In this document: positions 2,545 through 15,653 of the stretch, piece after piece
How positions within the stretch are numbered: the stretch's first letter is position 1
Layout of the letters: each line of letters starts with the position of its first letter
Origin: an uncultured Clostridium sp.
GTDB lineage: Bacteria > Bacillota > Clostridia > Lachnospirales > Lachnospiraceae
Reading direction: 5' to 3'
NCBI GenBank assembly: GCA_947644195.1
Contig: CANRZB010000031.1
Coordinates: 1-44,673 of the forward strand
DNA: 44,673 bases
Translations under genes and position numbers: made by a program
Notes under the pieces: generated by a model
What the model saw: the letters and a program-made list of their open reading frames with translations, nothing else
Told to the model about the DNA's origin: nothing
The model's database searches: none

Positions 2545-3858
2545 ATGAGTGAGAAAAGCAGGGAAACAGACGCCTTTTATCAGCAGTATATGTACAGTTA
2601 TCCTCACAAGACCGCATACCGGACTTTGCCCGACCTGGCGATCCAGGATTACCTGCCCAGGCTGGTAGGGGCAGAAAACAGCCTGTATTTCCATATTCCC
2701 TTTTGTGAAGCCAAATGTGGATACTGCAATCTTTTTTCCGTGGCAGGGCGGAATCCGTCGTATATGGAACGCTATCTGGATGCAATGGAGGAACAGCTTG
2801 GGCAGTATCACTTAGAGGAAGACGTATTTTCTGACGTGACTGTGGGTGGGGGAACCCCTCTGATCTTAGAGGAGAAACTATTGGAGCGGTTGTTTTCTCT
2901 CATAGACAGGGGAATGGGGAACGTTTCAGACTATCCGGTCATCATAGAAACTTCCCCCAACCAGACGACAGAAGGAAAGTTAGAGATCGCCAAAGCACAT
3001 CATACGCAGAGAGTCAGTATCGGGGTGCAAAGTTTCCAGGAGGAGGAATTAAAACGGCTGTGCCGGGTTCATTCCGCAGAACAGGCGAGAAAGGCGGTTG
3101 CTTTGATTCGAAAGCAGGAGTTTGCCTGCATGAATTTGGATGTGATCTATGGGATTCCCGGACAGACGAGGGATTCCTTGGGGGAGACACTGCGGGAAGC
3201 CCTGTTTTATCAGCCGGAGGAATTCTTTATCTATCCTTTGTACGTGAAACCGGGGACGCCGCTTGCAAACCGGGGAGAGCGGCCTTCGGGCCAGACCCGT
3301 CCTTTCTATGAAATGATCCGGGAATATTTATTGTTCCATGGGTATGAGCAATATTCCATGAGACGCTTTGTACGGGCTGATGTTGCGGTAGTTCATCCAG
3401 CAGAAGCCTGCGGTTTTGGGAATACGCTTTCCCTGGGGTGCGGCGGCAGGAGTTATCTGGGAAATTTACATTTCTGCACACCATACTCCGTCCGGCAGAC
3501 AGAATGTATCCAGCGTTTGGATGCTTACATGGAGACAGAGGACTACACAAAAATATCCCACGGTTTTATTTTGGACGAGGACGAAGAGAAGAGACGGTAT
3601 GTGATGAAAAATATATTGTTTGCCAGTGGTTTAGATGCCGTAGAATATCATCGGATTTTTGCCGGGGATTTGAAACAGGATTTTCCGCTTTTATCGGATT
3701 GGGAAGAAGAAGGGTATCTGCGGGCAAGTGGGGGAAACTATCTACTGACGGAAGAAGGGATGGCGCGTTCGGATGCCTTGGGTCCGCAGTTGATTTCAGA
3801 ACGAGTGAGAGGATTGATGCGTGAATGGGAACACAGTTTTATTACCGGGGCTATCTGA
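2545..3858 (+). CDS. HemW/HemN-like radical SAM protein, resembles the STM4012 family
   Basis: A 437-aa radical SAM enzyme. The 4Fe-4S cluster motif CxxxCxxC is at C54, C58 and C61, followed by the GGGTP loop near residue 100 and a GVQSF strand typical of the coproporphyrinogen-dehydrogenase-like group. The C-terminal ~110 residues have the HemN_C pattern (a winged-helix-like domain ending in LTEEG). Proteins of this length with this layout are annotated in enterobacteria as the STM4012 family, which occurs next to a second radical SAM protein (STM4011), as here; I make this link from memory. A heme chaperone (HemW) role is the alternative, but the operon context and the overlap with a second radical SAM gene argue for a dedicated biosynthetic role. 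ATG with GGGAGA upstream; first gene of the operon. Confidence 0.72.
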   Translation: MSEKSRETDAFYQQYMYSYPHKTAYRTLPDLAIQDYLPRLVGAENSLYFHIPFCEAKCGYCNLFSVAGRNPSYMERYLDAMEEQLGQYHLEEDVFSDVTVGGGTPLILEEKLLERLFSLIDRGMGNVSDYPVIIETSPNQTTEGKLEIAKAHHTQRVSIGVQSFQEEELKRLCRVHSAEQARKAVALIRKQEFACMNLDVIYGIPGQTRDSLGETLREALFYQPEEFFIYPLYVKPGTPLANRGERPSGQTRPFYEMIREYLLFHGYEQYSMRRFVRADVAVVHPAEACGFGNTLSLGCGGRSYLGNLHFCTPYSVRQTECIQRLDAYMETEDYTKISHGFILDEDEEKRRYVMKNILFASGLDAVEYHRIFAGDLKQDFPLLSDWEEEGYLRASGGNYLLTEEGMARSDALGPQLISERVRGLMREWEHSFITGAI

Positions 3859-5261
3859 CTTCTTGTAATTATTCCTGTGAATATTGTCCATTTTCCAAAC
3901 GGAATATGACGGCAGAACAGGAGAAAAAGGATCGACAGGCCCTGGAGCAATTTCTTTGTCAGATGGAGGCGGAGACCGAGGAACATGCCTTACTGATCGT
4001 GCCCTATGGAGAAGCCCTGTTACATCCCTATTATTGGGAGGCGATGGCAAAATTCAGTCAAATTAGAACGGAAGTATATACTGGCTGCCAGACGAATTTG
4101 AGTTTCCCGGTGGAACAAATGCTTTCGCTATTTGCGTCCTGTGGGGGAGAGAAACAAAAACTCCGCCTATGGTGCACCTTCCATCCTTCTATGACATCGG
4201 TGGATGCATTTGTCAGTCAGTGCAGGAAATTAGGACAGGCAGGTATTACCTATTGCGCCGGTGCGGTGGGGGATCCCGAAGCGTTATCCTATATACAAAA
4301 ACTTCGGGAAGCATTACCGGAAGAAGTCTATGTTTGGATCAATCGAATGGAGGGTAGACAAATACGGTATCGTGATGAGGAAATTCAGAAATTCCAGGAG
4401 ATTGATCCCTATTTTCCTTTGGAGTTACAGCATCTGCGGGCAGACAGCAAGCAATGTAGACAATCGGTGTTCCAGGAAGCGGAGGGATACCGATATTTTT
4501 GCAATCTTCATGCGGCGCAGCCAGGTAAGGCTGCGGACAACCCTTCCTGCAAAAGAAAGGAATGCAGCTGTTATCTTGCCTATTGCAATCGTATTGACGT
4601 GAAGGAATTAGTATTCTTTGAACCCTATCCTGCTTTTCGGATTCCGGTTTATCCCAAGGGAATTTTTCTGGATGTTGACGGGACGCTGGTGGCAGAGGGA
4701 GAACGGTCACCTACGAACTCTATGGTAGAAAAAATCCGTTGGCTGGCGAAGAAAAGCAAGTTGTATCTGGCAACGGCGCTTCCTTTTTCGGAAGCGATGG
4801 CAAAGTGCAGGAACATCGCAGACTACCTGTCTGGCGGTGTGTTTGCGGACGGAGGACATATTCTGGTCTGGAAGCAGACGGACCAAGGGCAGAGGGAAAT
4901 TCTTTGGGAAGAAGTGAAAGGTGTCTCTGTTCTTCCCAAGAACATTCTTTGTCGTAGCTATCAGATCCGGGGAGTCGTGTACAAGTATACGCTGTTTTCT
5001 AGAAGAAAACAGGGGTGGCGGCCAGGCGAGGCCGAGGATTTGATTCGGGAGATTGAAAAGTCGGTCATTGACAGGAATACGATTCGAATTCACAGGGAGA
5101 AAAGACATCTTGGCATTACGAGTGCAGATGCAGATAAAAAAACAGGGGTTGAAATAATCTGTGACCGGGAGGGGATTGCGCCGGAAGAAGGCATGGCAAT
5201 CGGAGACGATGTCGAAGATCTGCCAATGCTGTCCCTGTTTTCACGGTCTTTGTATCTATAA
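3825..5261 (+). CDS. Radical SAM protein (STM4011-like) fused to a HAD hydrolase
   Basis: Two-domain 478-aa protein. Residues 1-270 form a radical SAM domain with CxxxCxxC at C14, C18 and C21, plus a Cys-rich stretch around residues 225-255 that could bind an auxiliary cluster. Residues ~278-478 are a HAD phosphatase: DVDGT with the nucleophile and acid Asp at 283 and 285, and GDDVEDLPML near the C-terminus, which is motif IV of the HAD-IIB type. The ATG at 3825 lies inside the previous gene, giving a 34-base overlap and suggesting tight translational coupling. The radical SAM half resembles STM4011-family proteins, the usual partner of STM4012. The linked phosphatase suggests the radical SAM substrate or product is phosphorylated; that is inference. 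Confidence 0.7.
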   Translation: MGTQFYYRGYLTSCNYSCEYCPFSKRNMTAEQEKKDRQALEQFLCQMEAETEEHALLIVPYGEALLHPYYWEAMAKFSQIRTEVYTGCQTNLSFPVEQMLSLFASCGGEKQKLRLWCTFHPSMTSVDAFVSQCRKLGQAGITYCAGAVGDPEALSYIQKLREALPEEVYVWINRMEGRQIRYRDEEIQKFQEIDPYFPLELQHLRADSKQCRQSVFQEAEGYRYFCNLHAAQPGKAADNPSCKRKECSCYLAYCNRIDVKELVFFEPYPAFRIPVYPKGIFLDVDGTLVAEGERSPTNSMVEKIRWLAKKSKLYLATALPFSEAMAKCRNIADYLSGGVFADGGHILVWKQTDQGQREILWEEVKGVSVLPKNILCRSYQIRGVVYKYTLFSRRKQGWRPGEAEDLIREIEKSVIDRNTIRIHREKRHLGITSADADKKTGVEIICDREGIAPEEGMAIGDDVEDLPMLSLFSRSLYL

Positions 5262-5274
5262 GTTGGTATCAGTC

Positions 5275-5326
5275 ACAGCCGTTTTTTGATGGGATCACAA
5301 GAAGGAAACCCAGGAAAAGCGGCTGT
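5275..5326. repeat. Inverted repeat after the radical SAM pair
   Basis: ACAGCCG (5275-5281) plus a T-run pairs with an A-run plus CGGCTGT (5320-5326), giving an 11-12 bp stem around a loop of roughly 29 bases that also contains GGG and CCC. There is no U-tract after it, so it is not a standard intrinsic terminator. It could protect or process the upstream transcript 3' end. Confidence 0.45.
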
Positions 5327-5376
5327 AAATGGTTACGGATGTAGAATAGAGTAGAAATTTAAAAAAGAATTTCGTA

Positions 5377-5405
5377 TTGCGAAATAATCTAATGTCTGAT
5401 AAAAT
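5377..5405 (+). promoter_or_regulatory. Predicted sigma-A type promoter for the PPTase operon
   Basis: TTGCGA (5377-5382), a 17-base spacer and TAAAAT (5400-5405) match 4/6 and 5/6 of the vegetative consensus. It lies about 75 bases before the PPTase start and implies that the genes from 5481 to 10582 can be transcribed separately from the two radical SAM genes. Confidence 0.5.
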
Positions 5406-5480
5406 GTTAATGGAAACATTTGTTATTTGCTTTCACATGGGATATCCCCATCATTTTTTTCAAAGGATAGGAGTATCGGT

Positions 5481-6428
5481 ATGGTTTATCTGTTGGAATA
5501 CGATACGGTGGGAATGATTCAGGACAGGCAGACGGAGCGGAAACGAGGCAGGGAGCTTCTGCGTTTTGGATTGGACAGACAGTATGGTCTGCGGGCCGTG
5601 GTTCGGCAGGAATCTGGCGAAAAACCTTACTTGGAAGGTGTATCCGGTATCTATTTTAATATCAGCCATACCAAAGGCTTAGTGGCATGCGGCATTGAGG
5701 AACAGGAGATCGGAATTGATGTAGAATGGATCCGACCGTATGACAGACGCCTGATGCGCCGCATCTGTACGGAAGAAGAAATTGCTTATATAGAAGACGG
5801 AAATAGGGTGGGGGAGCAGATAAAAAATGAGAGGTTCTTTCGGCTGTGGACGCTTAAGGAGAGCTATCTGAAAGCCACTGGGCAAGGGCTGGCAGTACCG
5901 ATGAAAGAGATCTCTTTTATCATGGAGGAGAATAACCGGGAGCAGATTTCAAGCAATCTGCCCGGCTGGACTTTTCGACAGTTCCGCTATGCCGGGAGGT
6001 ATCTTGTATCTTTGTGCCGACGTTGTAAAGAAACAGCAGAAGGCACAAACCAGCAAAGAAAGAGTATGGATGGACATGTAGAAATTGGAGGGAATGAAAC
6101 GATGACGTATGAAGAGATTTTTGAAAAGGTAAAAAAGTTATTTGAGCAGGCAGATGTGAGCGAGGTCAAAGAACATCTTGCCTACCAGTTTAATATCGTT
6201 GGAGAGGGCGAGGGTGCATTCTATGCTGAGATCCAGGATGGGAAGCTGGATATCCAGCCGTATGAATACTATGATAGGGATGCCGTTTTTATCTGCAAGG
6301 CGGAAGTTTTGTTTGGTATGATCTCTGGTGAAATTGACCCGATCAAGGCCTTTACGGTTGGAAAATTAAAGGTGGACGGCAGCATTGATAAGGCGTTGAA
6401 GTTAAAGGACTTTGTGAAAAAGAAATGA
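5481..6428 (+). CDS. Sfp-type 4'-phosphopantetheinyl transferase fused to an SCP2 domain
   Basis: The N-terminal ~210 residues are a phosphopantetheinyl transferase, which moves the 4'-phosphopantetheine arm of CoA onto carrier proteins. Metal-binding D80 and E82 (GIDVEW) and the WTLKESYLKATGQG motif (W123, K126, E127, K131) are intact. The last ~108 residues (from codon 208) read like an SCP2/sterol-carrier domain (FEKVKKLF..., YEYYDRDAVF, KLKVDGSIDKALKL), a hydrophobic-ligand binding fold. The frame is open back to a TTG at 5427, but the ATG at 5481 has AGGATAGGAG directly before it (315 aa). The likely client is the carrier protein at 8807. An SCP2 domain on a PPTase is unusual, and an internal start at 6102 may make the SCP2 part alone. 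Confidence 0.85.
   Translation: MVYLLEYDTVGMIQDRQTERKRGRELLRFGLDRQYGLRAVVRQESGEKPYLEGVSGIYFNISHTKGLVACGIEEQEIGIDVEWIRPYDRRLMRRICTEEEIAYIEDGNRVGEQIKNERFFRLWTLKESYLKATGQGLAVPMKEISFIMEENNREQISSNLPGWTFRQFRYAGRYLVSLCRRCKETAEGTNQQRKSMDGHVEIGGNETMTYEEIFEKVKKLFEQADVSEVKEHLAYQFNIVGEGEGAFYAEIQDGKLDIQPYEYYDRDAVFICKAEVLFGMISGEIDPIKAFTVGKLKVDGSIDKALKLKDFVKKK
6087..6104 (+). promoter_or_regulatory. Internal ribosome binding site and start for a separate SCP2 protein
   Basis: Inside the fused frame, GGAGGG (6087-6092) sits 9 bases before an in-frame ATG (6102) that begins exactly at the SCP2 domain (MTYEEIF). This is a textbook Shine-Dalgarno arrangement and would yield a 108-aa SCP2 protein ending at 6428, in addition to the full fusion. 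Confidence 0.5.
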
Positions 6429-6436
6429 GGTTCAGA

Positions 6437-7411
6437 ATGAGGAAAGGAAGATTACTGTTAGGTGCTGCTTTATTGGGAGCCGCCGGAGAAGTTGCGGTTG
6501 CCTCTTATTTTTACCGTCGTACGATGCTTCGCGGCAATGCGAAACGGGATCGAACGCAGAAGATGGCAGGCACGGATTGGGATCGGTATATTCCGACGAT
6601 CCGTGCTGCCAAGGAATGGCTGGCGGGGCAGCCACAGGAGGAGGTCTGGATCACTTCAGATGATGGGCTGAAGCTGTTTGGACGATTTTTTCCGTGCGGC
6701 AGTTCGACAAAAACCGTTTTGTGCTTTCACGGTTATACCAGTGAAGGTCTCAATGATTATTCTACACTTGCCCGGTTTTATCTGGAACATGGATTTAATT
6801 TGCTGATCGTGGATGAGCGGGCGCATGGCAGAAGCGAGGGAACTTATATTGGATTTGGCTGCCTGGACAGGCTGGATGCTAAAGTCTGGATTGATTATCT
6901 CGTGAAACGTATGGGAGAGGACAGCAGTATCCTGTTGCATGGAGATTCTATGGGAGCGGCAACCGTTTTAATGACGACGGGACTTTCTTTGCCAAAGCAG
7001 GTAAAGGCAGCTGTTTCCGACTGCGCATTTACATCAGCGTGGGAGGTATTTAGTGCTGTACTGAAAAACATGTATCATCTGCCTGCGTTTCCAATTATGC
7101 AGCTTGCCAACCGCATGGTTTTGAAAAATGCCGGTTATGAATTGGATGAGTGCAATGCCAGACGGGAAGTCAGGAAAGCAAAGATACCGATTTTATTCAT
7201 TCATGGCAAGAGCGATACCTTTGTTCCGTGCTCTATGGTGTATGAGCTGTATGATGCCTGTCGGACAGAGAAGAAACTGGTGGTTATTGAGGATGCCGGA
7301 CATGTGGAATCCTGTTACAAGAACCCGGAAAAATATGAGGAAGCGATCCGTTCCTTTATTTTTCCTATTATGGAAAGGAAGGATGCTTATGAAGACCAGA
7401 AAGGGATGTAA
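6437..7411 (+). CDS. Alpha/beta hydrolase, membrane-anchored or exported
   Basis: A hydrolase of the serine aminopeptidase/YqkD-like group. An uncharged N-terminal helix (about residues 5-25) looks like a signal anchor. The nucleophile elbow is GDSMG (Ser about residue 171), the acid is in GKSDTFVP and the base in DAGHVE, so the triad is complete. HGYTSEG before it forms the oxyanion region. The ATG at 6425 would give an ATGA overlap with the PPTase stop but has no Shine-Dalgarno; the ATG at 6437 has GAGG six bases upstream and is preferred. In this operon it could act as a thioesterase that releases product from the carrier protein, or as an acyl hydrolase; the sequence does not say which. 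Its end overlaps the next gene by 23 bases. Confidence 0.8.
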   Translation: MRKGRLLLGAALLGAAGEVAVASYFYRRTMLRGNAKRDRTQKMAGTDWDRYIPTIRAAKEWLAGQPQEEVWITSDDGLKLFGRFFPCGSSTKTVLCFHGYTSEGLNDYSTLARFYLEHGFNLLIVDERAHGRSEGTYIGFGCLDRLDAKVWIDYLVKRMGEDSSILLHGDSMGAATVLMTTGLSLPKQVKAAVSDCAFTSAWEVFSAVLKNMYHLPAFPIMQLANRMVLKNAGYELDECNARREVRKAKIPILFIHGKSDTFVPCSMVYELYDACRTEKKLVVIEDAGHVESCYKNPEKYEEAIRSFIFPIMERKDAYEDQKGM

Positions 7412-8792
7412 AGTATATCCGCTAACAGCAGCACAGAAATTACATTATTATTGTATGAAATATTGCCCCAAAAAACAGGTGTTAAATATTGGATCCGCAC
7501 TGACAATACAGGTTGACCTGGATTGGGATACCTTAAAACAGTCCATCCAGGAGGCGGTTGCCCGCTGTGAATCCATGCGCGTCCGCTTTGCGGAGGATAA
7601 AGAGGGAAATGTATACCAGTATATGGTAAAAGAAGAGACGGCAGAGATCCGGCATTTTGATTTTACCGGCTGGAAACCAGAACATGCGGATGATAAACTG
7701 ACAGAATGGACGAGTACGCCGTTTGAACCTTATGATACCCCGATGCATGAGATTGTAATGATTAAAATGCCGGATGGATTTCAGGGAATTTACATTAAAG
7801 TGAATCATCTTATTATGGATGCACAGTCTCTGATTGCATTTTTCAAAGATATCATTGAGTTGTATTGCAGTAAGGTCTATGAGGAAATTGAGTATCCGAA
7901 GGAAATGGCGTCTTATATCAAACAGTTAGAAAAAGATCTCGCTTATGAGGAGGGAAGCAAGGCATCTGTGAGGGACAGGGAATTCTTTGAAAATCTAATT
8001 GCCTCCTCCGAACCAATTTTTACCGATATCTATGGAACAGAAAAATTGGATCAAGAGCGGAAAAAGCGAAAGAATCCAAAACTGCGGGCGGCAACCAATG
8101 TGTCCGATAATGTGGACGCCAATATTAAAAATTTCTTTTTGGAGGAAGAACCATCTAGAAAACTGGCGGAATTCTGTGAGGAAAATCAGATCTCCATGAC
8201 TTGTCTGCTTCTGATGGGACTTCGGACCTATTTGCAGAAAGAGAACGACCAGGAGGATGTGTCGATTACGACGACAATTGCTAGAAGAGCGACCTTGTTA
8301 GAAAAAAGGTGTGGCGGTTCCCGGATTCACTGTTTTCCATTTCGTACCATAGTATCCAGGGACGATACGTTTCTGGAGGGAATCTACAAGATTCGTGATA
8401 TGCAGAACCAGTATTTCCGACATGCGAATTACAGTCCGTCAGAATATTATGCGTTCCGAAAACAGTATTATCATTTACTAGATGGACAGACCTATGAGCC
8501 GATTTCTTTGACGTATCAACCGCTTACCATGAAATATGATGGTCCGGGGCTGGATAAATTAGGAGATATTCAGTATAATGTTAAGAGATATTCCAACGGA
8601 GCGGCTGCACATACCTTATATCTAACGGTCAGTCATACACCGGACGGTAGGATGGACTTCTGCTTTGAACACCAGACTGGGGTTGTGACACCGGAGAAGT
8701 TAGAAAGTATTTACTATTATCTGTGCCGGCTGATTTTCCGCGGTGTGGAGGATTGCAGCCGCACAGTGGGAGAAATCATAGATTGGTCATAA
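7389..8792 (+). CDS. Free-standing condensation-domain acyltransferase
   Basis: A 467-aa member of the condensation/CoA-dependent acyltransferase superfamily, which joins a carrier-bound acyl group to an amine or alcohol. The catalytic HxxxD motif is H140-LIM-D144 (VNHLIMDAQSL), and the second half carries the expected latch region (SLTYQPL and NGAAAHTLYLTVSHT). It stands alone: no adenylation, carrier or thioesterase domain is attached. The frame is open from 7128, inside the previous gene, but AAGGAAGG (7375-7382) six bases before the ATG at 7389 fixes the start. The separate carrier protein and AMP ligase downstream should supply its donor. Whether it makes an amide or an ester, and with which acceptor, cannot be read from the sequence. 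Confidence 0.8.
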   Translation: MKTRKGCKVYPLTAAQKLHYYCMKYCPKKQVLNIGSALTIQVDLDWDTLKQSIQEAVARCESMRVRFAEDKEGNVYQYMVKEETAEIRHFDFTGWKPEHADDKLTEWTSTPFEPYDTPMHEIVMIKMPDGFQGIYIKVNHLIMDAQSLIAFFKDIIELYCSKVYEEIEYPKEMASYIKQLEKDLAYEEGSKASVRDREFFENLIASSEPIFTDIYGTEKLDQERKKRKNPKLRAATNVSDNVDANIKNFFLEEEPSRKLAEFCEENQISMTCLLLMGLRTYLQKENDQEDVSITTTIARRATLLEKRCGGSRIHCFPFRTIVSRDDTFLEGIYKIRDMQNQYFRHANYSPSEYYAFRKQYYHLLDGQTYEPISLTYQPLTMKYDGPGLDKLGDIQYNVKRYSNGAAAHTLYLTVSHTPDGRMDFCFEHQTGVVTPEKLESIYYYLCRLIFRGVEDCSRTVGEIIDWS

Positions 8793-8806
8793 TGGAGGGA
8801 TAACAA

Positions 8807-9031
8807 ATGTTAGAGGAATTGAGAGACATTATTTGTCAGTATGTAGAGGTAAAACCAGAGCAGGTTACAGAGGATGCCAGATTTATTGAGGATCTTGGAT
8901 TTAATTCCTATGATTTTATGAGTATGGTCGGAGAGATTGAGGAACAGTTTGACATTGAGGTGGAAGAGCGGGAAGTCGTCAATGTCAAGACAGTAGGGGA
9001 TGCGATCGAATATATCAAGTCTTTGCAATAA
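8807..9031 (+). CDS. Acyl carrier protein
   Basis: A 74-aa acidic carrier protein. The phosphopantetheine attachment serine is S34 in DLGFNSYDF, which corresponds to the DSL motif of ACPs but with Asn in place of Asp. The four-helix pattern and length are normal for a discrete ACP/PCP. It lies 14 bases after the condensation protein, with GGAGGG before its ATG, and 42 bases before the AMP ligase. This placement makes it the carrier for this cluster rather than the fatty-acid synthase ACP. Confidence 0.92.
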   Translation: MLEELRDIICQYVEVKPEQVTEDARFIEDLGFNSYDFMSMVGEIEEQFDIEVEEREVVNVKTVGDAIEYIKSLQ

Positions 9032-9073
9032 GGATTACAGGATTACTACAAACAAGGGAAAGGGAGGGATTGT

Positions 9074-10582
9074 ATGGAGGTTCAGACATTACAGGATGTT
9101 CTGGTACATAGTGCGGCTTCCTATGGGACACAGACAGCGTACCGGTATAAGGTAAAAAAAGAGATTGTGGACAAAACCTATGAGGAAGTAAAAAGGGATT
9201 CGATGGCAGTCAGCCGGATGGTGGACCATTTTGGTATGACGGGGAAACACATTGCCATTCTGGGGACGACGACCTATCAATGGATCGTCAGTTTCTTTGG
9301 GGTGACGAATAGTGGAAGTGTAGCGGTACCAATTGATGCACAACTTCCAGCGGATGCAATCTGTGAACTGTTAAATCGGGCCGATGTGGAAATGTTGTTT
9401 TATGACGAATTGCGGGCCGATGTCGCAGGCCTGGTCGGGAAAGAATGTCCACAGATCCAGCAGGTAGTCTCTTTCCAGGCAGCGGAAAAACAGGATGGAG
9501 TATGGTCCTGGGAACAGTTGCGGGCAGATCATCTGGGGGAATATCAGGCTGAAATTGATCCTGACCAGCTCTGTACGATCCTATTTACATCCGGTACGAC
9601 GGGAAAAAGTAAAGGAGTTATGTTATCCCACCGGAATCTGACGGATAATGCGATTTGTCTGGATATGAAGATTCCGGCAGGAACGGTAACCATGACATTG
9701 CTTCCGATTAACCATGTGTATTGCCTAACCATGGATATCATCAAAGGATTATACATCGGCGTGACCTCCTGTATCAATGATTCGATTATGCATGTGCAGC
9801 GAAATCTAAAATTATTTAAGCCGGATATGGTGTTACTGGTGCCTTTGGTCATTGAATCCATCTATGCCAAGCTCAAGGCAGCAGGGGGAATGGTCCCGAA
9901 GAAGATGGTGGCAAAAGCTGCTTTTGGTGGAAATCTACATACGATTTGCAGTGGTGGAGCCTATCTTGATCCGGAATACGTAGATCGGTTTGCGGAGTAT
10001 GGTATCACGATATTGCAGGGATATGGGATGACAGAATGTTCTCCGGTCATCAGTACGAATCTACCTTGGGATAACCGGAAGGGATCCGTCGGGAAGCTGA
10101 TGCCGAATGCGGAAGCCAAGGTAGTGGATGAAGAAATCTGGATCCGCGGCACCAGTGTCATGATGGGATATTATAACATGCCGGAGGAAACGGCGGAGAC
10201 ATTGGAAGATGGATGGCTTAAAACCGGGGATCTCGGCTATGTAGATGAGGATGGCTATGTCTATATTACTGGACGGAAAAAGAATTTAATTATTCTGGCA
10301 AACGGAGAAAATGTTTCCCCGGAAGAGATAGAAAACCAGCTTGCCAAAGAAGACCTCATTAAGGAAATTCTGGTTCGGGAAAAGGATCAGGTTATCGAGG
10401 CAGAGATCTTCCCGGATTATGAGTATGCCAAGAAAAAACGGTTCAAAGAGATCCGAGAGAGATTACAGGGGATTTTGGATGACTATAATAAATTCCAGCC
10501 TCCTTATAAGGGAATTCATAGTCTCATTGTCCGGGAGACGGAGTTTGATAAGACAACAGCCAAGAAAATCAAGAGATTTTAA
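9074..10582 (+). CDS. AMP-forming acyl ligase (ANL superfamily)
   Basis: A 502-aa adenylate-forming enzyme that would activate a carboxylic acid with ATP and load it on CoA or, here, on the neighbouring carrier protein. The P-loop TSGTTGKSKGVML is at about residues 172-184, YGMTECSP near 318, the hinge GRKKNL near 400, NGENVSPEEIE near 412 and the C-terminal catalytic lysine region (TAKKIKRF) ends the protein. It resembles long-chain acyl-CoA synthetases and acyl-ACP ligases more than amino-acid adenylation domains, so a fatty or aryl acid is the more likely substrate; this is inference. The start has AGGGAGGG upstream. It is the last gene of the operon; the palindromic element begins 29 bases after the stop. 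Confidence 0.85.
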   Translation: MEVQTLQDVLVHSAASYGTQTAYRYKVKKEIVDKTYEEVKRDSMAVSRMVDHFGMTGKHIAILGTTTYQWIVSFFGVTNSGSVAVPIDAQLPADAICELLNRADVEMLFYDELRADVAGLVGKECPQIQQVVSFQAAEKQDGVWSWEQLRADHLGEYQAEIDPDQLCTILFTSGTTGKSKGVMLSHRNLTDNAICLDMKIPAGTVTMTLLPINHVYCLTMDIIKGLYIGVTSCINDSIMHVQRNLKLFKPDMVLLVPLVIESIYAKLKAAGGMVPKKMVAKAAFGGNLHTICSGGAYLDPEYVDRFAEYGITILQGYGMTECSPVISTNLPWDNRKGSVGKLMPNAEAKVVDEEIWIRGTSVMMGYYNMPEETAETLEDGWLKTGDLGYVDEDGYVYITGRKKNLIILANGENVSPEEIENQLAKEDLIKEILVREKDQVIEAEIFPDYEYAKKKRFKEIRERLQGILDDYNKFQPPYKGIHSLIVRETEFDKTTAKKIKRF

Positions 10583-10604
10583 TATGGCGAAAGCGGGGGC
10601 AGAA

Positions 10605-10611
10605 CAGATTA
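10605..10611. repeat. Left target-site duplication of palindromic element copy 1
   Basis: CAGATTA here is repeated exactly at 11082-11088, directly outside the two ends of the inverted repeats. It is taken as a 7-bp target-site duplication (8 bp if the terminal A is shared). Confidence 0.65.
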
Positions 10612-11081
10612 TCACGGAAATCAATTTTCAAATGGTATCATTTACCGATAATTTCTGACAGGTAATTTTCTGTTATCCATTAAATTTTATCATTTACCCT
10701 GCTGTTTCGTTCAGACGTTTCCCTTGATGTCCTATGAGACAAAATTTTGCCCTGCCGTAGTGCAATAGCCTTTCGAAAGAAACTCTGCCTTGCAGTGACG
10801 TATCTGTGCGTGCCCGGAAGCACTGTCTGAACACACATGCAAACGTAGCATGTGGGGAGTATGGCGTACGGGCACGCCAATAAATAATACGGCACGCAAG
10901 GCAGACAGTTTTTTCGAAAGGCGTAAACTTGCCAGGCAGGGCAAATTTTGTCTCATCGGACATATCGGTATTTTGCGGACGAAACAGCAGAAGGGGTGGG
11001 GTAAATAATGGATAACAGAAAATAATCCATTACAAAATCCACCACAAGTGAAAGGTAACATTTGAAAATTGATTTCCGTGA
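10612..11081. mobile_element. Palindromic MITE-like element, copy 1 (470 bp)
   Basis: The whole element is an imperfect palindrome. Its ends are perfect 23-bp terminal inverted repeats (10612-10634 and 11059-11081, outer bases TCACGGAAATCAATTTTC). Inner paired blocks include the left-arm copies of GGATAAC, TGCTGTTTCGT, ATGAGACAAAATTT, GCCCTGCC, GCCTTTCGAAA and TGCCTTGC, all found inverted in the right arm, and an apical hairpin CACATGC-AAACGTA-GCATGTG (10834-10854). A 7-bp duplication flanks it. It has no transposase gene; open frames inside it are by-products of the palindrome. It fits a non-autonomous element moved by a transposase acting from elsewhere. As RNA it would form one very long hairpin, which would also end or protect the acyl-cluster transcript. 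Confidence 0.7.
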
Positions 11082-11088
11082 CAGATTA
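11082..11088. repeat. Right target-site duplication of palindromic element copy 1
   Basis: CAGATTA, the exact copy of 10605-10611, directly follows the right terminal inverted repeat. Confidence 0.65.
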
Positions 11089-11098
11089 TGCTGGGGAC

Positions 11099-11126
11099 TT
11101 GTAATTTTAGGGAAATATGGTACAAT
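11099..11126 (+). promoter_or_regulatory. Predicted promoter of the SCIFF peptide gene
   Basis: TTGTAA (11099-11104), a 16-base spacer and TACAAT (11121-11126) preceded by TGG, an extended -10 element. It begins 18 bases after palindromic element copy 1 ends and leaves a leader of about 70 bases before the SCIFF start. Confidence 0.6.
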
Positions 11127-11200
11127 AGCTTTATATGGCTGGAATTACCAATAGATTCTGCCACATACAATGACAGAAAATGATATGGAGGAAAATAATC

Positions 11201-11350
11201 ATGAAACATATTAAGACAGTGAACCGTGCAAACTTAGCGGCAACGGCAAAGAAAGGCGGATGCGGTAAATGCCAGGCTTCCTGCCAGTCCGCATGCAAGA
11301 CCTCTTGTACCGTAGGTAATCAGAAATGTGCAAACGAGGAAAATAAGTAA
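11201..11350 (+). CDS. SCIFF ranthipeptide precursor (six cysteines in forty-five residues)
   Basis: A 49-aa peptide. The leader MKHIKTVNRANLAAT and a core with cysteines at 21, 24, 28, 32, 36 and 43 are the hallmarks of the SCIFF family found in nearly all Clostridia. Known members are ribosomally made peptides in which the radical SAM maturase forms thioether bonds from cysteine sulfur to non-alpha carbons of other residues (ranthipeptides). GGAGG lies about 10 bases before the ATG. It has its own promoter, and its maturase follows after a hairpin, the standard arrangement. The biological role of SCIFF peptides is still poorly defined; quorum-like signalling has been proposed for clostridial ranthipeptides. 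Confidence 0.96.
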   Translation: MKHIKTVNRANLAATAKKGGCGKCQASCQSACKTSCTVGNQKCANEENK

Positions 11351-11403
11351 GGAAAAAGTCTTTTACTATGGTATATCCGTTAGTAGAGCAGCGAACATAG
11401 GAG

Positions 11404-11445
11404 TGGCTGTTGCAGGATCTGCAGCAGCCATTTGCCATGTTTTTA
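11404..11445 (+). terminator. Hairpin between SCIFF peptide and maturase (terminator/attenuator-like)
   Basis: TGGCTGTTGCAG (11404-11415) pairs with CTGCAGCAGCCA (11419-11430), a 12-bp stem with one wobble and a 3-base loop, followed by a T-rich stretch including TTTTT at 11440-11444. It would reduce read-through so that far more peptide mRNA than maturase mRNA is made. Confidence 0.6.
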
Positions 11446-11463
11446 TGGAGGATTAATATTATT

Positions 11464-12831
11464 ATGATACATAAATTCAAAGCAAAGGATATCAGCATTG
11501 TACTGGATGTGAATAGTGGCGGTGTTCATATTGTCGATGATGTCACGTATGATTTATTAGATCTGGTCGAGCCGCCGTTTCAGGCATCCTGCCCAGACGA
11601 TGTTTTGGTAAAACTGTCTGACCGTTACACAGAAACAGAGATTACGGAGGCCTATGCTGATATTTTGGAACTTCATCAACAACAATTACTGTATAGTGAC
11701 GACCGCTATGGAAACTTTGCGGAAACCGCAGTCGAGTCTCCGATCAAGGCATTGTGCTTGCATATTGCCCATGACTGTAATCTGCGCTGTAAGTATTGTT
11801 TTGCTTCTACCGGTGATTTTGGAACCGGACGCAAACTGATGCCATTTGAAGTAGGGAAGGCAGCCATAGACTTTTTGCTTGAACATTCTGTCGGCAGGGA
11901 AAACCTGGAGGTGGATTTCTTTGGAGGGGAACCTCTGATGAACTTTGAAGTGGTCAAACAAATTGTCGCCTATGCCCGTAGCAAGGAAGAAGAATATCAC
12001 AAAAACTTCCGTTTTACGATTACTACGAACGGCGTACTGCTGACGGATGACAAGATTGATTTTATCAACCGGGAAATGTATAATGCGGTGTTGTCGATTG
12101 ATGGCAGAAAGGAAGTCAATGACCGTCTGCGTACCAAAGTGGATGGCAGTGGGAGTTATGATACGATTATCGAAAAATACAAAAAACTGGTTCAGAATAG
12201 AGGAGATCAGGAATACTATGTGAGAGGAACTTACACCAGATATAACCTGGATTTTTCTGAGGATGTACTGCATTTATATGAAGAGGGCTTTGATCAGATT
12301 TCGGTAGAGCCGGTTATGGAAAGCCCGGATGTGGAATATGCCATCCGGGAGGAGGATCTGGACCAGATTTATGCAGAATATGATAAACTGGTTGACCGAA
12401 TTCAGGAGATTCGGAATTCCGGTGGCTCGATCAATTTCTTTCACTTTATGATTGATCTGGACCAAGGTCCCTGTGTGGTCAAACGTCTGCGGGGATGCGG
12501 CAGTGGTAACGAGTATGTGGCGATTACCCCGGATGGAGATATCTATCCCTGCCATCAATTTGTCGGGCATGAAGAATATTGTATGGGAAATCTGGAACAG
12601 GGAACCTTCCGGGAAGATATCAAGAAAGAATTTGCGGGATGCCATGTTTATTCGAAACCGTCCTGTCAGAAATGCTGGGCAAAATTTTATTGTAGCGGGG
12701 GCTGTAATGCCAACAACTATATCTTTAACGGAGATATTCATGATTCCTATGAATTGTCCTGCCAAATCATGAGAAAACGTCTGGAAAGTGCAATCCTGGT
12801 AAAAGTGTGTGAAACGTTGGAACAATCCTGA
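11464..12831 (+). CDS. SCIFF radical SAM/SPASM maturase
   Basis: Enzyme that installs thioether crosslinks in the SCIFF peptide. Residues 1-85 fit the peptide-recognition (RRE, PqqD-like) domain; the radical SAM motif is C105-x3-C109-x2-C112 (CNLRCKYC), followed by GGEPL. The C-terminal ~100 residues are a SPASM region with many cysteines (GCGSG, YPCHQF, CQKCWAKFYCSGGC) for two auxiliary 4Fe-4S clusters. At 455 aa it has the usual family length. The frame is open from 11410, but the ATG at 11464 starts the conserved N-terminus; GGAGG at 11447-11451 gives a long 12-base spacer. Partner: the peptide gene just upstream. Confidence 0.95.
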   Translation: MIHKFKAKDISIVLDVNSGGVHIVDDVTYDLLDLVEPPFQASCPDDVLVKLSDRYTETEITEAYADILELHQQQLLYSDDRYGNFAETAVESPIKALCLHIAHDCNLRCKYCFASTGDFGTGRKLMPFEVGKAAIDFLLEHSVGRENLEVDFFGGEPLMNFEVVKQIVAYARSKEEEYHKNFRFTITTNGVLLTDDKIDFINREMYNAVLSIDGRKEVNDRLRTKVDGSGSYDTIIEKYKKLVQNRGDQEYYVRGTYTRYNLDFSEDVLHLYEEGFDQISVEPVMESPDVEYAIREEDLDQIYAEYDKLVDRIQEIRNSGGSINFFHFMIDLDQGPCVVKRLRGCGSGNEYVAITPDGDIYPCHQFVGHEEYCMGNLEQGTFREDIKKEFAGCHVYSKPSCQKCWAKFYCSGGCNANNYIFNGDIHDSYELSCQIMRKRLESAILVKVCETLEQS

Positions 12832-12955
12832 TGATGGATTTTCATGAAGGAAATGAAAGGGGTTCGGGGCCAGCGGATCTCTGTTTTGGGCTGATTGCAA
12901 TGGAGTGAACGGCTGTGTTCTTGTCCTGGTTGAAGGACGGGTCGATAGGAGGAAT

Positions 12956-14122
12956 ATGATTGAGCAATTATCAAAGTGGTTGATTCCCCATTACAAAGAA
13001 TATGAGAATCCTCAGGTACGTCGGAAGTATGGTGTTCTGACGGGAGTGGTGGGAATTTGTTTTAATATCCTGTTATTTGGATTGAAATATTTTGCTGGCG
13101 TCTGGAGCGGGTCGGTGGCAATGATTGCAGATGCTTTTAACAATCTCTCCGATGCTGGATCTTCTATTATTACGATGATTGGATTTCAGTTTTCTGGCAG
13201 GGAACCGGATGCGGAACATCCTTTCGGTCATGGGCGTTATGAATATATTGCCGGATTTTTGGTTTCCCAGGCGATTCTGCTAATGGGGTTGGAACTTGCC
13301 AGAGGATCCTTTGCCAAGATTCTGCATCCACAGCCGGTAGAAACCGGTAATATGGTGTATGTTATCTTGCTTTTATCCATTGCGGTAAAAGGTTATATGG
13401 CAGCCTATAACCATAGAATTGGCAAAAAGATTCATTCTACGGCAATGCACGCGACAGCGATGGACAGTGTCAGCGATATGGTGGCAACTTCTGTTGTCCT
13501 GCTGTCCATGATTGTATTACAGCAGACTTCTTATAATGTGGATGGATATTGTGGTCTGCTGGTTGCAATTTTTATTCTATATACTGGGATACAGACGATT
13601 CGCGAGACATTGGGAACTTTATTGGGAACGAAACCGGACGCCCGTTTTGTGGAGCAGGTTTATGAGATTGTTTTGCGGCATCATCTGGTGATGGGGATCC
13701 ATGATTTGGTCGTGCACGACTATGGAGCCGGCCGCCGTATGATTTCGTTACATTTGGAGGTGCCGGGTGAGATCAATGTCTATGCCTTGCATGACATTAT
13801 CGAACATATCGAAAGTGATTTGGACCAGGAACTGGATTGTAAGAGTGTGATTCACATGGACCCGATTGAATCTGATAATGAAACGGTAATGGAACTGCGG
13901 GAGGCAGTGCAGCAATTAGTGCAGAGCTTCGATGAGCGACTCTCTATCCATGATTTTCGTGTTGTTCAGTGCCACCAGGGAGAAAACATGGTGTTTGATC
14001 TGGTAGTGCCGCAGGAATTGTCCGTGCGGGAGGAGGAAATCGTGGAACAGCTGGTACAGCAAATTCGTAAGCGATATCCTGCCTATGAGGTGGTTGTTAA
14101 ACCGGAACAGAATTATGTATAA
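12956..14122 (+). CDS. Cation diffusion facilitator family transporter
   Basis: A 388-aa cation efflux (CDF) protein that exports divalent metals such as zinc, iron or manganese in exchange for protons. Residues ~25-215 hold the membrane helices with the metal-site signatures AFNNLSDAGSS and HPFGHGRYEY; the second metal-site helix shows HATAMDSVSD. A cytoplasmic C-terminal domain follows, and its length suggests a second ferredoxin-like module. The ATG at 12956 starts the conserved N-terminus and has AGGAGG at 12947-12952, although the spacer is only 3 bases; the longer frame starts with GTG at 12905 without support. The metal cannot be named. It ends at a shared bidirectional terminator. Confidence 0.93.
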   Translation: MIEQLSKWLIPHYKEYENPQVRRKYGVLTGVVGICFNILLFGLKYFAGVWSGSVAMIADAFNNLSDAGSSIITMIGFQFSGREPDAEHPFGHGRYEYIAGFLVSQAILLMGLELARGSFAKILHPQPVETGNMVYVILLLSIAVKGYMAAYNHRIGKKIHSTAMHATAMDSVSDMVATSVVLLSMIVLQQTSYNVDGYCGLLVAIFILYTGIQTIRETLGTLLGTKPDARFVEQVYEIVLRHHLVMGIHDLVVHDYGAGRRMISLHLEVPGEINVYALHDIIEHIESDLDQELDCKSVIHMDPIESDNETVMELREAVQQLVQSFDERLSIHDFRVVQCHQGENMVFDLVVPQELSVREEEIVEQLVQQIRKRYPAYEVVVKPEQNYV

Positions 14123-14136
14123 TATTGAAAAACAAG

Positions 14137-14169
14137 AGGCGGATAAACGTTTTACCAGTTTATCCGCCT
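14137..14169. terminator. Bidirectional intrinsic terminator
   Basis: AGGCGGATAAAC (14137-14148) and GTTTATCCGCCT (14158-14169) form a perfect 12-bp stem with a 9-base loop between two convergent genes. A-rich sequence lies on the left and T-rich on the right, so it can serve both strands. Confidence 0.85.
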
Positions 14170-14186
14170 ATATATGTATGATTAGA

Positions 14187-14738
14187 TTACATTAAAGTTT
14201 CCAATAACATTGTGTTTGTCGGCAAATGCAGAACCGGGATGGCATGCGTTTCATCCCCATAGTTTATCTTTGAAAATTGGTTGCAGATTTGTTCATAGGT
14301 CTCCGGGGTGTATTTGAGTCCTAAGTTTTTAGCCAGCCGGTTAAAGGTAACCGGAGCCAGGCATTTTCCCCAGTCCTCCGCATCGTTATCTGACATGATG
14401 GCAGGTGTGATCTCTAAGGTTTGGCTGGTAGTCAGGTTATAGGCGGTTAATTGCAGATAACCTTCCTCATTCGTTGTAACCCGTACCTCGCATATTTCCT
14501 GGTCATTCTGTCGGAAATTCTTTTTCTTCAGATATTCCGAATCAATACAGGAAAGCGGATCCAGCATACTCATAAGCTGCCTACGGTCATGTGTAATTAA
14601 ATAGATCAGTTTGTCGATGCTCTGCTGGTTCATCACGTCACTGTCTACCGCATTTTTTTTATCAATTAAGAAAGATACCAGTGTGTCAATCTCGTCCTGG
14701 GTTAATAATGAATAGCTTTGATTCAGATTCGAATTCAT
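14187..14738 (-). CDS. Hypothetical protein with a FliM-like N-terminal peptide
   Basis: A 183-aa soluble protein I do not recognise. The start is secure: GGGGAGG eight bases before the ATG, and a near-consensus promoter upstream. Residues 12-20 (LTQDEIDTL) closely match the conserved N-terminal peptide of the flagellar switch proteins FliM and FliY (LSQDEIDALL), which binds phosphorylated CheY. The rest of the protein has no FliM domain that I can see. No flagellar or chemotaxis genes are in the window. The match may be functional (binding a CheY-like receiver) or chance. Palindromic element copy 2 sits just upstream of its promoter. Confidence 0.7.
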   Translation of the reverse strand: MNSNLNQSYSLLTQDEIDTLVSFLIDKKNAVDSDVMNQQSIDKLIYLITHDRRQLMSMLDPLSCIDSEYLKKKNFRQNDQEICEVRVTTNEEGYLQLTAYNLTTSQTLEITPAIMSDNDAEDWGKCLAPVTFNRLAKNLGLKYTPETYEQICNQFSKINYGDETHAIPVLHLPTNTMLLETLM

Positions 14739-14840: not shown

Positions 14841-15420
14841 AGGCAACAGCATTTACTTGTTGCCATTTACAGTTTTTGCCGTATGGATAATTTTGGGTTA
14901 TCCGCCATAATTCAGTATTAATCTTGCTGTTTCGTTCAAAAATTTCCCCTGATGTCCGGTGAGACAAAAGTTTGCCCTGCCGTAGTGCAATAGCCTTTCG
15001 AAAGAAACTCTGCCTTGCAGTGACGTATCTGTGCGTGCTCGGAAGCACTGTCTGAACACGCATGCACGGTTTGTAGTTTCTTTTTTCGGGCACGCTTGCG
15101 CTAAATTTCATACGCAGCGGTACCTAACGAGCTACAGGACAGCTCGTAAGTACCGGCGTATTCAAATTGCCCGCAAAAAAGAACATACAAACGTAGCATG
15201 TGGGGAGTTTGCGCACGAGCACGCCAATAAACAATATGGCACGCAAGGCAGACAGTTTCTTCAAAAGGCGTAAACTTGCCGGGCAGGGCAAATTTTGTCA
15301 CATCGGACATACCAAGATTCTTTCGGACGAAACAGCAGAATGAATGGGGTAAATGGCGGATAACCTAAAATTATCCTGCTGAAATGTATTACAAATAGCA
15401 ACAAGTAAATGCTGTTACCT
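14841..15420. mobile_element. Palindromic MITE-like element, copy 2 with nested palindrome
   Basis: Outer arms pair as AGGCAACAGCATTTACTTG (from 14841) with its near-exact inverse ending at 15420, followed inward by paired GGATAATTTT/GGTTATCC blocks. From TGCTGTTTCG inward, the left arm is nearly identical to copy 1 (the stretch GTAGTGCAATAGCCTTTCG and about 60 surrounding bases are unchanged). The outer arms differ from those of copy 1, so the family has a shared core and exchangeable ends. At the apex a second palindrome of about 120 bp is inserted. There is no transposase gene. Copy 2 and half copy 3 fill the 1044-base gap between the genes at 14738 and 15783; nothing else is seen there. 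Confidence 0.65.
15067..15188. repeat. Nested palindrome at the apex of copy 2
   Basis: Relative to copy 1, about 122 bases are inserted between CATGCA and AACGTAGCATG. The insert is itself a palindrome: TTTGTA and TTTCTTTTTTCGGG on the left pair with CCCGCAAAAAAGAA and TACAAA on the right, and the centre has CGGTACC...GTACCG enclosing ACGAGCT (15127-15133) and AGCTCGT (15141-15147) around a 7-base loop. A hairpin inserted exactly in a hairpin loop keeps the whole structure self-complementary. Confidence 0.7.
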
Positions 15421-15421
15421 T

Positions 15422-15432
15422 GGGGAAGTGAC
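15422..15432. repeat. Right flanking direct repeat of palindromic element copy 2
   Basis: GGGGAAGTGAC, identical to 14828-14838. Its last bases abut the first bases of half copy 3, so copy 2 appears to have inserted at the very edge of the older copy 3. Confidence 0.5.
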
Positions 15433-15653
15433 ACGGAAATCAATTTTCAACTGCTACCATTCCCTTGTGGTGGATTTTGTAATGGATCATTTTCTGTTAT
15501 CCATTAAATTTCATCATTTACTCTGCTGTTTCGTTCAGAAGTTTTCCATGATGTCCGATGAGATAAAATTTTACCCTGCCATAGTGCAATAGCCTTTCGA
15601 AAGAAACTCTGCCTTGCAGTGATATATCTGTGCGTGCTCGGAAGCACTGTCTG
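15431..15653. mobile_element. Half palindromic element, copy 3 (one arm only)
   Basis: The arm starts with ACACGGAAATCAATTTTCAA, like the terminal repeat of copy 1, and runs through TTGTGGTGGATTTTGTAATG, TTCTGTTATCC, TGCTGTTTCGTTCAG and GTGCAATAGCCTTTCG to GGAAGCACTGTCTG, where the similarity stops a few bases short of the apical hairpin. No matching right arm follows. This is a copy cut at its centre. The 130 bases after it up to the gene at 15783 show nothing further that I can name. Confidence 0.7.

Follow-up and report, generated by a model that had tools for sequence, protein, structure and literature searches.

A candidate fatty acid amide operon of the stand-alone condensation protein kind, with linked lipid-binding and hydrolase genes, in an uncultured Clostridium sp.

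Fatty acid amide (FAA) systems, as described in PMC13142362, employ a separate ligase, acyl carrier protein (ACP), and condensation protein. In that description, OaaC joins ACP-bound fatty acids and free amines to give FAAs, and the products formed in vitro were oleoyl, palmitoleoyl, and lauroyl amides with aminovalerate or gamma-aminobutyric acid (PMC13142362). The FAA clusters of gut Clostridia from Chang et al. (2021, Nat Microbiol), which are cited in PMC13142362, PMC10191378, PMC11500036, and PMC11565975, belong, as PMC13142362 describes them, to the same gene-content class as the locus studied here. This locus lies at positions 5481–10582 of a stretch of 44,673 nucleotides (the window; contig CANRZB010000031.1 of assembly GCA_947644195.1) from an uncultured Clostridium sp. 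of the Lachnospiraceae. Homology, gene order, and conserved catalytic residues make it very probable that its genes form an FAA biosynthesis operon of the stand-alone, nonribosomal peptide synthetase (NRPS)–like kind, with the reaction inferred from OaaC. In related work, Elmassry and colleagues reportedly made FAAs from disease-associated Clostridia clusters.

Gene set and condensation protein

An earlier reading of the letters alone (the original prediction) had placed five genes here in one direction, and Pfam profile matches and open frames recovered all of them on the forward strand. They encode an Sfp-type phosphopantetheinyl transferase (PPTase) predicted to prime the ACP (5481..6101; PF01648, 2.8e-18), in frame in the window genome with an SCP2 lipid-binding protein (6102..6428; PF02036, 5.2e-12); an esterase-like alpha/beta hydrolase with an N-terminal hydrophobic helix (6425..7411); a free-standing condensation protein homologous to OaaC (7389..8792; PF00668, 1.4e-39; H140 and D144); an ACP with Ser34 in DLGFNS (8807..9031; PF00550, 2.9e-13); and an AMP-forming acyl ligase predicted to load fatty acids onto the ACP (9074..10582; PF00501, 3.1e-66). 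The PPTase and SCP2 share a single open frame that starts at ATG 5481, with AGGAG upstream, and ends at 6428. An in-frame ATG at 6102, preceded by a GGAGGG 9 bases away that was identified by eye, gives SCP2 a start of its own, from which it is probably also translated. The arrangement is operon-like: the end of the PPTase-SCP2 frame overlaps the hydrolase start, and the hydrolase end overlaps the start of the condensation gene (ATG 7389, picked by eye and preceded by GGAAGG). Since the order hydrolase-condensation-ACP-ligase is found again in many other genomes, the grouping is more than chance. A modular NRPS carries condensation, adenylation, and carrier parts in one polypeptide, whereas here they are encoded by three separate genes.

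Against PDB sequences, the condensation protein matched 12kh_A with 337.5 bits (E 1.2e-99, about 38% identity), and the next match reached 30.6 bits. The alignment is full-length, with residues 6–463 of 12kh_A corresponding to residues 8–465 of the window protein. According to the data section of PMC13142362, 12KH is OaaC of Coprococcus eutactus. The window motif NHLIMDA, for which OaaC has DHRLMDS, keeps the catalytic H140 and D144, and Ala takes the place of Gly directly behind the Asp. The second His and the sixth-position Asp, called highly conserved in PMC13142362, are present in all motifs compared (18/18 OaaC-type and 56/56 window-type). The first motif position is more variable among the 56 window-type proteins (Asp in 31, Asn in 21, His in 4), and the window protein has Asn. 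OaaC is further reported to contain an insertion with a helix (PMC13142362). All 45 proteins compared with OaaC align to this insertion (Gln214–His224) without a gap, and the AlphaFold model of the window protein places a helix there, at residues 218–226 (mean predicted local distance difference test score 88.8). Oaa-type condensation proteins are further characterised by a homodimer that conceals the carrier site; the window protein was modelled as a monomer.

Compared to the Oaa pathway of C. eutactus (OaaA, OaaACP, and OaaC; oleoyl aminovaleric acid), the window locus also encodes its ligase, ACP, and condensation protein as free-standing proteins, with the His and Asp and the insertion helix kept. 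It differs in the identity to OaaC and the motif given above, in the separate clade described below, and in the SCP2 gene within the operon. The dlt operon (DltA, DltC, and DltB), which had been offered as a parallel, likewise has a discrete ligase and carrier. Unlike in dlt, a condensation protein, not an MBOAT protein, would do the transfer here, and the absence of DltB was borne out, as no MBOAT match was found among the ten proteins scanned at 2545–14738. The starter condensation domain of RzmA, in turn, is part of the rhizomide synthetase, whereas the window protein has a single domain; starter condensation domains act on a carrier-bound acceptor (PMC13142362).

Conservation of the operon in relatives

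Linkage was examined in 45 loci: the window, 19 loci from other genomes, and 25 from named genome contigs, which represent Lachnospiraceae, other Clostridia, and candidate genera and include [Clostridium] citroniae at 76% identity. Among 61 genomes, 27 matched the condensation protein, and 20 stretches of these were taken with longer flanks; one locus (L039), a modular NRPS, was left out of the 45-locus counts. Of the 45 loci, 44 have an ACP gene linked to the condensation gene, 42 a ligase gene, and 40 a hydrolase gene, and scattering of the core genes in relatives, which would have spoken against the original prediction, was not seen. A contig end explains the gaps in L038 (ligase) and L049 (ACP and ligase), and the hydrolase of L029 lies downstream on the opposite strand. 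Functional residues are also conserved. The Ser34 column holds Ser in 44 of 44 aligned ACPs, and the ATP-site pattern is present in 42 of 43 ligase frames. Of these 43 frames, 41 carry the KIKR-type lysine motif at the C-terminus; the other two are a frame at a contig end and half of a split one.

In an even draw of 397 genomes of the window's family, with kinship taken from the labels of the search tool, 57 genomes, representing 50 of 334 genera, matched the condensation protein at E<=1e-20. Matches at 53% identity or more occurred in 39 of the 397 genomes, including the window's; 16 matches fell at 32–40% and 3 at 25–30%, and one genome (G200) had one match in each of the two upper ranges. 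At least one of the 57 matching genomes has a match that looks like a modular NRPS (G194, a 1428-aa frame). Of 392 genomes of the order, 33 matched at E<=1e-30, 30 belonging to the window's family and 3 to a single further family.

In a FastTree phylogeny, the condensation proteins fall into two sister clades: an OaaC clade (n=18, support 0.992), made up of OaaC and 17 loci with the partial L040 left out, and a window clade (n=56, support 0.987). The clades differ at 66 positions, the motif included, each conserved at 85% or more in both clades. The catalytic His is followed by Arg in 18 of 18 OaaC-type proteins, whereas in the 56 window-type proteins the next residue is Met (33), Leu (19), Arg (2), Lys (1), or Phe (1). 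This difference hints at an amine other than that of OaaC; as Leu or Met occupies the position in 52 of 56 members of the window clade, the amine need not be aminovalerate.

The second distinguishing feature is SCP2. An SCP2 profile matched 20 of 27 window-type loci, which were its training set, and none of 18 OaaC-type loci; in at least L022, L024, and L040, the sequence covered ahead of the condensation gene is shorter than 200 bases. SCP2 was found again in 28 of 29 independent window-type loci, the best-scoring ones besides the window's, from 26 genera; 28 lower-scoring matches lie outside this count, and L072, the same place as L021, was left out. Taken together, 48 of 56 window-type loci have an SCP2 gene ahead of the hydrolase gene. 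It is not a strict rule: in the near relative L041, the PPTase gene stands directly before the hydrolase gene and SCP2 is missing. Because SCP2 domains are common in these genomes (52 of 61, with a second one in a 344-aa frame in the window genome), it is the linkage and not the mere presence of SCP2 that is telling. The hydrolase is shared more broadly, being found in 13 of 18 OaaC-type loci.

The PPTase has Sfp as its best PDB match (2.4e-13). In the window genome, the PF01648 matches are the locus PPTase and a 142-aa, AcpS-sized frame on contig C21, with none other. By profile, a PPTase gene is present at 4 of 27 window-type loci (the window, L041, L042, and L044), at 3 of 18 OaaC-type loci (L023, L032, and L035), and at all three loci of another family, which have no SCP2 and carry the PPTase gene between the ACP and ligase genes. 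Among the 29 independent window-type loci it was seen in one (L096, at the stretch edge), with at most 1,500 bases upstream covered, so that genes farther away would be missed. The PPTase recurs as a neighbour without being a fixed part of the locus. The PPTase-SCP2 fusion that had been proposed is indeed a single frame in the window and was seen only there, L042 and L044 having two overlapping frames; as a family trait it is ruled out, relatives having a separate SCP2 gene. Another fusion of a PPTase in this operon kind, the second, occurs in L126, from another family of the order, where a 695-aa frame (7174–9258) joins a PPTase (PF01648, residues 84–178) and a ligase (PF00501, residues 208–558).

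Several points weigh against the assignment to FAA biosynthesis. OaaC is the one characterised member compared, at about 38% identity, and the comparison with the Oaa set covers OaaC alone. 12KH was not among the rows of the fold search, the library of which ends on 2026-04-08. The tree is rooted on two outgroups, L039 and one of six further loci, the other five having been dropped for want of a stretch of more than 250 residues. One locus (L021/L072, genome G008) has no ligase gene in a 19 kb stretch around the ACP gene, and in L030 the ligase frame is split. Finally, the window motif, NHxxxDA, deviates from the (D/H)HxxxDS written for OaaC-like proteins. In the 127 FAA condensation proteins of PMC13142362, the Asp is followed by Ser in 42%, by Ala in 36%, and by Gly in 17%. 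The (D/H)HxxxDS pattern is thus not invariant, as 58% of that set is without Ser, and at the level of sequence the window motif departs from a description and not from a defining trait of Oaa-type proteins.

Proposed pathway and alternative explanations

In the proposed FAA pathway, the PPTase would convert the ACP to its holo form, and the ligase would activate a free fatty acid as acyl-AMP and load it onto Ser34 of the ACP. The condensation protein would bind the acyl-ACP and, by analogy with OaaC, a freely diffusing amine would attack the thioester with the participation of His140. This attack would both make and release the amide, so that no thioesterase would be needed. The hydrolase may act at the membrane to release fatty acids from esters; SCP2 may carry the hydrophobic substrate or product. 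The activation of an acid, priming and loading of a carrier, and acyl transfer without a modular NRPS or polyketide synthase, as the original prediction had it, fit the Oaa-type kind, and the acylated amine named there as a possible product would fit as well. The release step that had been given to the hydrolase is unneeded in the published OaaC scheme, in which the amine releases the product (PMC13142362). The statement that no known pathway has such gene content did not hold, as the stand-alone ligase, ACP, and condensation protein kind makes FAAs in gut Clostridia according to PMC13142362. A wholly new pathway was rejected for the same reason: the Oaa-type pathway is already described there. 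Judged by homology, the locus is of a known pathway kind and belongs to its own clade of OaaC-homologous systems with an SCP2 and hydrolase extension.

A broader interpretation is tentative and on balance doubtful. The locus would represent a second, widespread FAA system. An esterase-like hydrolase at the membrane would supply fatty acids released from dietary or host lipids, SCP2 would keep the acyl chain or the completed amide in the cytosol, and the amine would belong to a class other than the omega-amino acids. If this were true, an NRPS-like line would have in SCP2 a lipid chaperone of its own, a function of which we know no other case. Full-text literature searches brought up PMC13142362 as the one paper dealing with the enzymes of this pathway, and its main text contains no word beginning with sterol or hydrolase. 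In the full-text literature, condensation domain, sterol carrier protein, ACP, and Lachnospiraceae were not found together, the primary cluster papers lying outside this search.

Among the alternatives, the one that survives best, though it is improbable, is that the line acylates a non-amine or large acceptor such as a lipid, glycan, or peptide. The condensation protein would then be a cell-envelope acyl-ACP acyltransferase, with SCP2 and the hydrolase serving lipid remodelling. The linkage of SCP2 (48 of 56 window-type loci) and of a hydrolase with an N-terminal hydrophobic helix is in line with such a role, as are the three-protein composition of the published Oaa set (PMC13142362) and the 66 clade-distinguishing positions, which include the motif. 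Against this stand the full-length homology of the condensation protein to OaaC and the presence of the hydrolase in 13 of 18 OaaC-type loci too. Furthermore, no glycosyltransferase was present among the flank families in at least four loci that were checked with Pfam, a part of all families (TetR, MatE, ABC transporter, histidine kinase, DUF6612, shikimate-pathway enzymes, cytidylate kinase–like, HD domain, and elongation factor G). The flanks are equally silent on the amine expected under FAA biosynthesis: no conserved amine-making gene was present among the identified families in at least four loci, with rarer and presumed antisense shadow families left out, and those identified were two TetR kinds (in 10 and 15 loci), transporters, regulators, and housekeeping genes.

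It is far less likely that the locus is part of a larger pathway in which the acid or amine joined by the line is produced or altered by upstream radical SAM proteins and a HAD domain. The original prediction had pointed to two radical SAM proteins and a phosphatase directly upstream. Both radical SAM genes were found on the forward strand: an STM4012-family gene (2545–3858; NF006067, 491.7 bits, cut-off 380) and, overlapping it, an STM4011-family gene (3825–5261; NF038073, 263.6 bits, cut-off 200). The phosphatase turned out to be a domain of the latter, because a HAD domain (PF08282) forms its C-terminus. In the window genome the pair is adjacent to the operon and on the same strand, whereas tblastn at E<=0.01 matched neither protein in any of 77 loci, 44 of them related and with longer flanks (31 with at least 5 kb upstream of the condensation gene), the rest being short or from elsewhere. 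The STM4012 model scored over its cut-off in 14 of 61 genomes, 11 of which also had a full condensation match. The two lay on one contig in the window genome only and on different contigs in the other 10, a point weakened by fragmented assemblies. A gap of 219 bases separates the pair from the PPTase gene. It contains a stable hairpin at 5275–5326 (−30.6 kcal/mol for 5262–5345, z −5.1), which is not a standard terminator as no T run follows it, and a possible extended −10 promoter on the forward strand at 5377..5405 (TTGCGA-17-TAAAAT with TG), a consensus match only; promoter-like sites in 5150–11250 numbered 18 against a mean of 12.3 in shuffles. The radical SAM pair was rejected as part of the system, given its absence from the 44 related loci and the different contigs in 10 genomes, and is a separate unit. 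The gene order originally proposed thus recurs as far as hydrolase-condensation-ACP-ligase is concerned, while the radical SAM genes are absent and the PPTase gene is often away from the locus.

Just as remote is a role in teichoic acid–style D-alanylation or ordinary fatty-acid metabolism, where the ligase and carrier resemble DltA and DltC in principle and the ACP falls just under the fatty-acid ACP model cut-off (68.6 versus 71 bits), while no MBOAT match was found among the ten proteins scanned at 2545–14738, the best-scoring ligase model, an acyl-CoA ligase, is below its cut-off (265.8 versus 476), and the condensation protein has, to our knowledge, no place in either process.

Surrounding features and significance

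A repeat lies just 3′ of the ligase gene, at 10612–11081; it is roughly 470 bases long, has inverted ends of 34 bases that are 88% complementary, and resembles a miniature inverted-repeat element. Further stretches of it occur in the window at 14864–15376 and 15432–15653. The genome holds 87 matches, many of them partial, and the full-length matches are the window's own copy only; matches are counted on both strands because the repeat is partly palindromic. Beyond it, a gene for a Cys-rich, SCIFF-like peptide, identified by eye (11201–11350), is followed by a radical SAM/SPASM maturase gene to 12831 (TIGR03974, 705.7 bits), an ordinary pair in Clostridia. Upstream, on the minus strand at 1332–2183, is an aspartate/ornithine carbamoyltransferase-like gene (PF02729, PF00185) with a product of 283 aa, which we take to be shorter than the family norm. 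PADLOC gave no match for the PPTase/SCP2, hydrolase, condensation protein, and ligase, and weak matches for the radical SAM proteins. In G008, where the ACP stretch showed no ligase gene, the next gene (3690–5336 of L072) encodes a membrane protein whose C-terminal half, named by eye, is spermidine-synthase-like. Four related loci (L048, L052, L054, and L056) have DAHP synthase, prephenate dehydrogenase, and EPSP synthase genes upstream of the FAA block; they are too few and too related to bear on an aromatic amine.

FAAs from gut bacteria act on human G protein–coupled receptors (PMC13142362). Assignment of the locus to FAA biosynthesis would allow genome annotators to name an otherwise puzzling gene set, and SCP2 and the hydrolase would be two accessory proteins for the study of FAA pathways. 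As the window clade, taken as matches of 53% identity or more, occurs in 39 of 397 family genomes and has a conserved lipid-binding partner, the family may contain further FAA producers, possibly using other amines.

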